From NCBI GenBank assembly GCA_946546815.1, contig CAMNOL010000009.1, positions 1 to 42,009 of the forward strand: a stretch of 42,009 bases of DNA. The letters are read 5' to 3'. Of the stretch, positions 9,297 to 42,009 are shown in pieces. The notes under the pieces are model-generated. The model made no database searches and was not told where the DNA came from. It saw only the letters and a program-made list of their open reading frames with translations. The position numbers and the translations under genes are program-made. Each line of letters opens with the position of its first letter. The stretch's first letter is position 1. The DNA comes from an uncultured Oscillospiraceae bacterium (GTDB taxonomy: Bacteria; Bacillota; Clostridia; Oscillospirales; Oscillospiraceae).

Positions 9297-9329
9297 GATA
9301 ACGAATGGTCCTTTCGACTAATGTTCCAG

Positions 9330-9490
9330 GGAAGCGCTGATTAAATCTCTCGGATGGCTGGACGAGGATATTTTTCGTTCAGATAGTGGCCAAATTCCGC
9401 AGGAATCCTGACGGATTTCAAGGAATTAGGACGCTATATGGCGGAAAATAGACCGTCCAGACGCCGTAGCTTGATTGAATCAGTGGTTCC
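9330..9490. mobile_element. MITE-like element, copy A (161 bp), TSD CCAG
   Basis: The ends are imperfect inverted repeats: GGAAGCGCTGATTAAATC (9330-9347) against GGAACCACTGATTCAATC read from 9490 inward, 15 of 18 matching. CCAG flanks both sides (9326-9329 and 9491-9494), the mark of a transposed element with a 4-bp target duplication. It has no coding capacity. The right part holds the core GGCGGAAAATAG...ACGCCGTAGC shared with the other copies. Its last 54 bp are identical, in inverse orientation, to 41956-42009. The right end supplies the last two codons and TGA stop of yfmH. Confidence 0.8.
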
Positions 9491-10751
9491 CCAGGGGCAG
9501 GATTTTCGATACCGCCATGCGCTCCCGGGTGACGACCCGGTCCAGAAATGCCTCTGCATCCGTCTTTGTGATGCCCTCGTACAGCTCCGGGAACCGGTAG
9601 TAATGATAGCCGTGGAAGTGAGCGCGGGCCAGCTGGACGCAGCAGTGCTCAAAGGAGTTCAGCGCCCGGATCCGGCTGCCGTAGCAGGCCTTCAGGCACC
9701 GCCGGAACCGGTCCTCCGGCAGACCCTCTCTGCGAATCCGCTGGCCCTCTTCCAAAATTTCCGCTGTGACCGCATCAGGGTCCGGGCTGTCTCCGCCAAA
9801 GAGCAGAAAGGCGGTGCCGGACTGATCCTCATAGGACACGCCAAAGCTCTGGTTGATGAGTCCTTTTTCATACAGCCTCTGATACAGCGGGCTGGACGTT
9901 CCGCACAGCAGGTCGCCGGCCACGTCGCCAATGAGCCGCTGCATCTGGTCCCCGGGAGCGCTAGGCTCCGCCTTAAAGGCGGACAAAAAGGTGGGCGCGG
10001 ACACCGGCATAGTCTCGATCTGCTCTGCCCGGGCTGCCTCCATTGCCTCTGGCGCCCCGTGGTCCTTTTCCACTGCGGGGCCCTTGACGGGGGAGACCAC
10101 CATGCGGGCCACCGCCATCACCCGCTCCGGGTCCACGTCGCCGGTGACGCACAGCACCATGTTTTCCGGGCGGTAGAAGGCCCGGTGGCAGTCGTACAGG
10201 GTCTCAGCGGTGATGTGGGAGATGGACTCCGCACTCCCCGCCACTGGCACGCGGACGGGGTGGTGGTCGTAGAGGGCCTGGAGCAGGTTGCTGTACACCC
10301 GCCACTGGGGCCGGTCCGACACCATCTGAATCTCCTGTCCGATGATGCCCTGCTCCTTGGCCACGGATTCCGGGGTGAAATACGGCGTGGTGACAAAGGA
10401 CAGCAGCGTCCGCAGGTTGGAGTAAAAGTGCTCCGTGCACTCAAAATGGTAGGCCGTCATGGAGGAGCTGGTGAAGGCGTTGGGGAAGGCTCCGCCGGCG
10501 GAGAGAATCTGCAGCGCGTTGCCCTGGGGCAGGTCGAACATCTTATGCTCTAAGTAGTGGGCGACGCCTGGGGGGGTCTCCCGGAGCTGACCGTCCAAAC
10601 GGTAGCGGAAGTCCATTCCGCCGTAATTCACCGCCAGAAAGGCGTAAGCCTTCTGATAACCGGGGCGGAGGGTGACGTAAACGCTCAGTCCGTTTTCCAG
10701 CCTTTCATAACAGCAGGTTTCGTTCAGACGGGGAAACTGTGTGATTTTCAT
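9480..10751 (-). CDS. yfmH: M16 peptidase, YfmH-type
   Basis: This 423-residue pitrilysin-fold protein carries the inverted zinc motif HYLEH (65-69), so it is the catalytic partner of the pair. YfmF and YfmH are adjacent in Firmicutes and have been linked to EF-P 5-aminopentanol modification; that role is taken from the family name, not shown here. The ATG overlaps the yfmF stop by 4 nt (10748-10751), a sign of translational coupling. The C-terminal Asn-His-stop lies inside mobile element A, so the original end may have been slightly different. Confidence 0.92.
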   Translation of the reverse strand: MKITQFPRLNETCCYERLENGLSVYVTLRPGYQKAYAFLAVNYGGMDFRYRLDGQLRETPPGVAHYLEHKMFDLPQGNALQILSAGGAFPNAFTSSSMTAYHFECTEHFYSNLRTLLSFVTTPYFTPESVAKEQGIIGQEIQMVSDRPQWRVYSNLLQALYDHHPVRVPVAGSAESISHITAETLYDCHRAFYRPENMVLCVTGDVDPERVMAVARMVVSPVKGPAVEKDHGAPEAMEAARAEQIETMPVSAPTFLSAFKAEPSAPGDQMQRLIGDVAGDLLCGTSSPLYQRLYEKGLINQSFGVSYEDQSGTAFLLFGGDSPDPDAVTAEILEEGQRIRREGLPEDRFRRCLKACYGSRIRALNSFEHCCVQLARAHFHGYHYYRFPELYEGITKTDAEAFLDRVVTRERMAVSKILPLGNH

Positions 10752-19059: not shown

Positions 19060-19073
19060 AATCTCAAACCTAT

Positions 19074-19248
19074 GCAGAATAGAGGTGCGGTTTTCATCAG
19101 TACCTGCGGACTGGGCTCCGGCAGCCCGTCAAATTCCGCAGAAAAAGGGAACGCCGCCGAAGATTTGCACACCGTCGGAGTGCAGGTCTGGGCGTCAGGT
19201 CAACAGCCTGCCGACTGTCATCTGACGTTCAGATGGAGCGCTGTCTGC
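19074..19248 (+). promoter_or_regulatory. Lysine riboswitch (L box)
   Basis: The conserved core of the lysine aptamer is directly visible: AGAGGTGCGG (19081-19090), CATCAGTA, then GGGAACGCCGCCGAAG and a GGTCTGG segment. A terminal helix can be drawn between GCAGA (19074-19078) and TCTGC (19244-19248). Lysine riboswitches bind free lysine and shut down lysine synthesis or import genes. The context fits fully, since it precedes asd-dapA-dapB and a terminator hairpin lies about 45 nt downstream, so lysine should favour premature termination. Confidence 0.92.
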
Positions 19249-19292
19249 TTTTGTTCCTGAACTGCTTTGCGCCGCAGAGCACGCTTTTGTAC

Positions 19293-23987: not shown

Positions 23988-24012
23988 GATGGGTACTGTA
24001 CGAGAAAACTAA

Positions 24013-24093
24013 GGCATCACCGCATAATGGGACAAGAGCGGATTGCGGAAAATAGGCCGCAAGGCGCCGAAGTTCTCATTGTACGGTGTTGCC
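24013..24093. mobile_element. MITE-like element, copy B (81 bp), TSD CTAA
   Basis: Ends GGCATCACCGCATAATG (24013-24029) and CATTGTACGGTGTTGCC (24077-24093) are inverted repeats with 14 of 17 matching. CTAA flanks both sides (24009-24012, 24094-24097). The interior holds the hairpin TGCGG/CCGCA around AAAATAGG and then GGCGCCG. Compared with copy C (35208-35365) it keeps the same two ends but lacks about 77 bp of the middle, so it looks like an internal deletion derivative. Confidence 0.82.
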
Positions 24094-24117
24094 CTAACAC
24101 ATTGTGAGGAATCAGCT

Positions 24118-35201: not shown

Positions 35202-35207
35202 AGCAAG

Positions 35208-35365
35208 GGCTTCACTGCATCATGGGACGAGAGCGGTGGGCGAGAAATTTTTCGTCAAATTGAGGTGCGAAAATGCGGTACTCCTTGCCGGATTTCAGGT
35301 TTTCGCAACGAAAAGTTGGCGGGAAATAGCCGACCAGCGCCGAAGCCTCATTGTGCGGTGATGCC
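35208..35365. mobile_element. MITE-like element, copy C (158 bp), TSD CAAG
   Basis: The ends GGCTTCACTGCATCATG (35208-35224) and CATTGTGCGGTGATGCC (35349-35365) are imperfect inverted repeats, flanked by CAAG on both sides (35204-35207 and 35366-35369). The interior has a hairpin-rich middle (CGAGAAATTTTTCG, CGAAAATGCGG, CGGATTTCAGG) related to copy A, and the core GGCGGGAAATAGCC followed by AGCGCCGAAG. It has no coding capacity. It lies between clpX and lon. The remaining 172 bp before lon contain short hairpins (GCCGCA/TGCGGC; GCCCG/CGGGC) and no clear sigma-A promoter. Confidence 0.82.
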
Positions 35366-35537
35366 CAAGATAGAAAATGTCTGCCGCAGACTGCGGCGGT
35401 ACGGGAGATGCCCGGCGGGCGTTTCCTGTATCATACACAACCACCGCAGGGCCGCAACAGAGAATCTCTTGCTGTGACCCTGCTGTTTTTCACAATGGAG
35501 CGGCGCGTTCCGGTGCCGCCTCCAGGAGGAAGTGCGT

Positions 35538-41955: not shown

Positions 41956-42009
41956 GGAACCACTGATTCAATCAAGCTACGGCGTCTGGACGGTCTATTT
42001 TCCGCCATA
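41956..42009. mobile_element. MITE-like element, copy D (cut by window end)
   Basis: The last 54 bases are identical to the reverse complement of 9437-9490 (element A), starting with the same terminal repeat GGAACCACTGATTCAATC. The element is therefore present again in inverse orientation and continues beyond the window. The 4 bp before it are CATG; whether they are duplicated on the far side cannot be seen. Confidence 0.8.

Follow-up and report, generated by a model that had tools for sequence, protein, structure and literature searches.

A single conserved hairpin core, carried between many different transposon ends, is the unusual feature of a family of short elements dispersed through the genomes of Clostridia; in every other feature tested, the elements conform to MITEs. 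They were recognized in a 42,009-nucleotide stretch of DNA from an uncultured Oscillospiraceae bacterium, hereafter the window. The elements are almost certainly non-autonomous transposons of the IS5 type (MITEs), and substitutions in their core very probably reflect selection on a folded strand. The explanation as a whole, in which IS5-type MITEs carry a selected, folded core and have repeatedly changed their ends, is one we consider likely. The core is more than filler passed on by descent, since a covarying and strand-specific structure is kept across at least 15 end types while the ends themselves vary.

The window contains three complete elements and part of a fourth. Element 1 (positions 9330 to 9490, plus strand) is a complete, non-coding type A element of 161 bp with ends GGAAGCGCTGATTAAATC and GATTGAATCAGTGGTTCC, flanked by CCAG on the left (9326 to 9329) and on the right (9491 to 9494). 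Its conserved hairpin core (9351 to 9470, plus strand) matches covariance model R1, which was built from the core alone, at 99.7 bits. The apical part of this core, CAGGAATCCTGACGGATTTCAAG (9400 to 9422, plus strand), contains a conserved 2x2 loop, CA/AA, and a tip stem that covaries and in which a G-U pair recurs. Element 3 (35208 to 35365, plus strand) is a complete type B element of 158 bp with ends GGCTTCACTGCATCATG and CATTGTGCGGTGATGCC, flanking CAAG copies at 35204 to 35207 and 35366 to 35369, and a conserved core (35227 to 35346, plus strand) that matches R1 at 70.6 bits. Element 2 (24013 to 24093, plus strand), which lies between CTAA copies at 24009 to 24012 and 24094 to 24097, is a short type B form of 81 bp from which the upper part of the hairpin is deleted. 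A similar deletion occurs in type A, as a short form on contig C67. The fourth copy (41956 to 42009, minus strand) corresponds, in reverse complement, to the right half of a type A element and is broken at position 42009, where both the window and its contig end.

Each complete element in the window folds end to end into a single hairpin, with z scores of -8.5, -5.4, and -3.8 for elements 1, 2, and 3, respectively. Element size ranges from 81 to 247 bp, there is no coding capacity, and the inverted ends are imperfect and 18-20 bp long. The initial annotation had placed these elements, their GG...CC ends, and the three 4-bp duplications (CCAG, CTAA, and CAAG) exactly, had recognized the cut copy, and had proposed a shared interior, which alignment shows to be real. 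A minus-strand ORF (9480-10751) now terminates within the right end of element 1 (window positions 9480-9494); at other copies, stop codons frequently fall on the YTAR target.

Searches of the genome to which the window belongs, an incomplete assembly of 1.86 Mb in 145 contigs (94% complete), returned 52, 28, and 70 matches to the three element queries, which merged into about 61 loci, or about one per 30 kb. The expectation of many copies per genome, drawn originally from four in 42 kb, was thus borne out, and copies sharing both ends and core were found in this genome and in its relatives. At least 20 of the approximately 61 loci (about a third) touch contig ends; these elements are a main cause of assembly breaks in the genome. 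Alignment of the complete copies yielded type A (GGAAGGACTGATTAAATC; 11 complete copies delimited), type B (GGCTTCACCGCATAATGGGAC), and one intermediate on contig C19. At one locus (G000:C126:1257-1640), a type A element directly adjoins a type B element, and a TTAG at the junction is common to both.

Several lines of evidence indicate that the elements arrived by insertion. Identical 4-bp flanks border 14 of 32 complete copies in the genome, whereas random pairing of left and right flanks (2000 shuffles) gave 2.7 on average and never more than 11. In other genomes, exact 4-bp duplications flank 10 of 25 type C copies (2.4 in shuffled pairings) and seven of 13 type A copies (1.8 in shuffled pairings), such that for types A, B, and C the duplications are well above the shuffled expectation. 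In one genome assembled completely as a single contig (G132), most of the ten copies that we read have matching 4-bp flanks. Target sites are YTAR-like, for example CTAG, TTAA, and CTAA. For type T, an end type found in relatives, 4-bp flank matches were no better than chance (14, compared to 13 in shuffled pairings), and the target duplication is likely TA. Imperfect duplications were present in many copies; these and mismatched flanks could result from the joining of contigs at repeats, from decay, or from recombination between copies.

Comparison with related genomes, suggested initially as a check on the 4-bp duplications, revealed an empty site. When joined, the flanks of element 1 align across the junction to a related genome (G024), in which the sequence reads GCTCCAGAGGC and CCAG is present once. 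Other relatives also lack the element at this site, at junctions too diverged for the target to be read. The intergenic sequence of relatives at the site of element 3 was too diverged for alignment.

For both types of end found in the window, the genus contains insertion sequences with matching terminal repeats, all of the IS5 family. We drew the candidates from IS5-type transposases of the genus. One locus (L200) is an insertion sequence of 1125 bp with ctaa flanks and type B-like ends, GGCAACACCGCATAAC; the transposase at a second locus (L356) is 75% identical to that of L200, and an end there, GGCACCACCGCACAATGACGAG, is close to the type B end. For type A, an insertion sequence of 1210 bp (L199) has ttag flanks and type A-like ends, and a decayed copy with type A-like ends (L202) lies in the same genome as the window. 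Type T ends, GGCCTTGTTTGTAAAAT, are found at a further locus (L219), bordered on either side by TA. NCBIfam names the transposases of L199 and L200 as IS5 by NF033581 (approximately 308-310 bits, cut-off 140), and that of L219 as IS5 by NF033580 (134 bits, cut-off 110). The elements are short and non-coding, with inverted ends, a target duplication, and ends shared with autonomous elements of the genome or its relatives; an IS5-family partner transposase and 4-bp YTAR duplications (types A, B, and C) point to mobilization by IS5. The copies, the empty site, and the ends of the IS5-family partners together support the original proposal that the elements form a MITE superfamily mobilized by related transposases.

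The hairpin core was not found in any of the partner insertion-sequence loci tested. In relatives, it is flanked by many different ends, including GGAACCTCTGAATAAATG, GGCCTTGTTTGAAAA, GAAGCTGTACCAATAGG, GAGCCTGTTTAAAATCC, and GAACCTGTATTCATAACC, as well as GGGTGTCTTCCCATTCCCGG, GGTGTATCTGAAAACTG, GGGTACCTCTAAAAACCC, GGCAATACCGCACAAAG, GGTGTGTCGGTGCTATC, and others. At least 15 terminal-repeat types, with differing duplication patterns, share one hairpin core of about 120 nt, whose size and polarity are unchanged between these end types across Clostridia. The two types described initially, A and B, are those present in the window, but this number understated the diversity in relatives.

A covariance model had been suggested with the initial annotation, and R1 finds the core across the order and the class. 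Within the order, 48 of 147 genomes gave matches, as did 38 of 291 genomes sampled from the class as a whole. Of 249 genomes sampled across the phylum, three matched; two of these were the window's own genome and a member of its family, so that one lay outside the class. From these fractions, we conclude that the core is widespread and that R1 has good specificity. Copies per genome under R1 are underestimates, since only the best candidates were scored. A pattern for the hairpin tip gave at least 115 matching stretches in genomes of Clostridia, both gut and environmental, with Flavonifractor plautii ATCC 29863 and Anaerotruncus colihominis DSM 17241 among the cultured carriers. We found no core in plasmids, one phage record with 75% identity and, using the tip pattern, two viral contigs of 2.9 million. 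Its near-absence from these sequences indicates that the core is essentially chromosomal.

Base pairing within the core is conserved through sequence change. Among 92 distinct sequences, in an alignment that was fitted to the model and so favors structure, standard pairs occupy 86.7% of cells, compared to 64.5% after shuffling, and both sides of a pair have changed in 588 cells, compared to 189. The covariation score, 0.58 compared to 0.19 in shuffled alignments, is destroyed when the partner is slid by a single column. A scan of all column pairs likewise places the nested pairs top for covariation. When the search was freed from its sequence, the tip stem also covaried (ATCC/GGAT, ATAC/GTAT, AGGC/GCCT). 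Between the stems, loop motifs recur: CAAGG faces AACGCAG, and the 2x2 loop CA/AA lies below the tip. Within an internal loop of alignment A2 (columns 51/120 and 52/119), G-A covaries with C-G, a hint that a non-canonical pair may be conserved there.

Pair variants also distinguish the two strands. Within families, variants read on the plus strand are G-U in 100 cases and A-C in 55 (48 and 21, respectively, for fixed variants). Counted over the outermost 27 bp in 25 consensus types, G-U outnumbers A-C by 59 to 12; the end types are not fully independent, and one locus (L229) was entered on the wrong strand, so that its correction would shift three counts from A-C to G-U. We considered mutation bias, in the form of C-to-T drift, as the source of the G-U excess and rejected it, since the loops are biased in the opposite direction, with C-to-T changes rarer (0.107 per site) than G-to-A changes (0.292 per site). 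The preference for G-U over A-C on one strand, together with covariation, argues that a folded single strand of fixed polarity has been favored from end to end. As G-T pairs are tolerated in DNA hairpins too, the G-U excess does not prove RNA. The data fit a candidate RNA and single-stranded DNA alike, and the two are not distinguishable here. We saw no conserved promoter for the elements.

Some elements carry two additional hairpins, of approximately 21-26 nt and 69 nt, at identical internal positions in types A and B. For the 69-nt module, identity between A and B copies is 97-100%, whereas the same copies match at only 57-74% over the rest of the core. In the window's own genome, every occurrence of this module lies within such an element or beside one at a contig end (G000:C134:1702-1770, C50:4522-4590, C17:19017-19085, and six more). 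To judge from these identities, exchange of the 69-nt module between families, or its site-specific insertion, must have been recent.

One way to explain a selected hairpin is a benefit to the host: the element would regulate in cis or act at transcript ends, for example as an RNase III site or as a hairpin that stabilizes or terminates transcripts, and, having spread as a MITE, would be kept near gene ends. Most copies indeed lie between genes, often directly next to a stop codon, and other families carry two cores arranged head to head as an inverted pair, enclosed by inverted repeats that are not the same at each locus (L287:301-539, L289:186-422, L290:182-418, L281:182-424, and L253:1501-1740). 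These inverted repeats look like rho-independent terminators, with an A-run, a stem, two hairpins, a stem, and a T-run. However, adjacency to stop codons is also expected from the target, since YTAR contains TAA or TAG and insertion restores a stop. Orientation relative to neighboring genes was mixed, with no preference in two samples, as judged from rough gene calls based on simple codon usage, and we rejected a role in 3' untranslated regions with fixed orientation on these grounds. Moreover, the element is missing from several relatives at the only locus studied closely. We therefore regard a host function as unlikely.

Alternatively, the elements could be passive MITEs, their core the functionless relic of one ancestral IS5-type element whose ends and transposases diverged gradually. 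That every partner transposase found belongs to the IS5 family, that several end types resemble a continuum, and that long palindromes are typical of bacterial MITEs all fit such a history. But filler should not retain a fixed length, loop motifs, covarying stems, and a G-U preference on one strand; the ends vary more than the core, the opposite of expectation; and the core is absent from the partner elements. On balance, we consider this unlikely as well. Rolling-circle or REP-type hairpins moved by a tyrosine HUH transposase (RAYT), with incidental IS5-like ends, would account for whole-element hairpins, fixed polarity, and the inverted pairs in some genomes that recall REPINs, but the 4-bp duplications are real, the ends match IS5 elements, and a search of the window's own genome (94% complete) for Y1_Tnp (RAYT) proteins found none, on which basis we rejected this highly improbable idea.

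Our preferred explanation remains that of IS5-type MITEs with a selected core. IS5-family transposases would act in trans on the ends of the elements, and the plus strand would work as a folded single strand, either as read-through RNA or as transient single-stranded DNA, for the element's own spread. The core may have changed its transposon ends repeatedly, probably by recombination between copies. That the hairpin serves the spread of the element and not the host is a suggestion we make tentatively. With similar caution, we propose a selfish hairpin module present class-wide, in which an RNA or single-stranded DNA domain could be the unit of selection, repeatedly acquiring available IS5-type ends, present as inverted pairs within terminators in other families, and exchanging second-order hairpin modules between its versions.

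The elements can be compared with several known systems. Like IS5-family insertion sequences (the IS5 and IS427-like groups) and their derived MITEs, they have terminal repeats that match IS5 elements of the genus, YTAR-like 4-bp duplications (types A, B, and C), and partners with DDE transposases named IS5 by NCBIfam. Unlike in IS5-derived MITEs, the interior is not derived from the partners examined and is common to many end types. The ERIC/IRU elements of enterobacteria are short and dispersed, fold end to end, and carry hairpin modules of about 70 nt at fixed internal positions. By this description, they resemble our elements in end-to-end folding, dispersal, and inserted hairpin modules but differ in sequence, host group, and duplication, and in having one end type. 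NEMIS/Correia elements of Neisseria are MITEs of approximately 100-160 bp with variable internal deletions that lie near genes and form RNA hairpins. By description rather than sequence, they are similar in size, internal deletions, and gene proximity; we know of no core conserved between many end types among them. REP/REPIN sequences share conserved hairpins, sometimes inverted pairs, and fixed polarity, but our elements are much longer (about 120-160 nt), with direct duplications, IS5 ends, and no RAYT in their own genome.

The usual view of a MITE is of a pair of ends around an interior that can be dispensed with; in these elements, it is the interior that is conserved and the ends that are interchangeable. 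The function of a MITE interior thus becomes directly testable in cultured gut bacteria that carry the core, such as F. plautii and A. colihominis. The elements also offer sites for recombination across Clostridia genomes, and they break assemblies. Literature searches, covering open-access papers, found no earlier description of the hairpin or the elements, and Rfam covariance models gave no match on the elements, either at the gathering score or up to an E value of 1. Elsewhere in the window, Rfam models match a lysine riboswitch (19072-19251) and a tRNA cluster (1-500).
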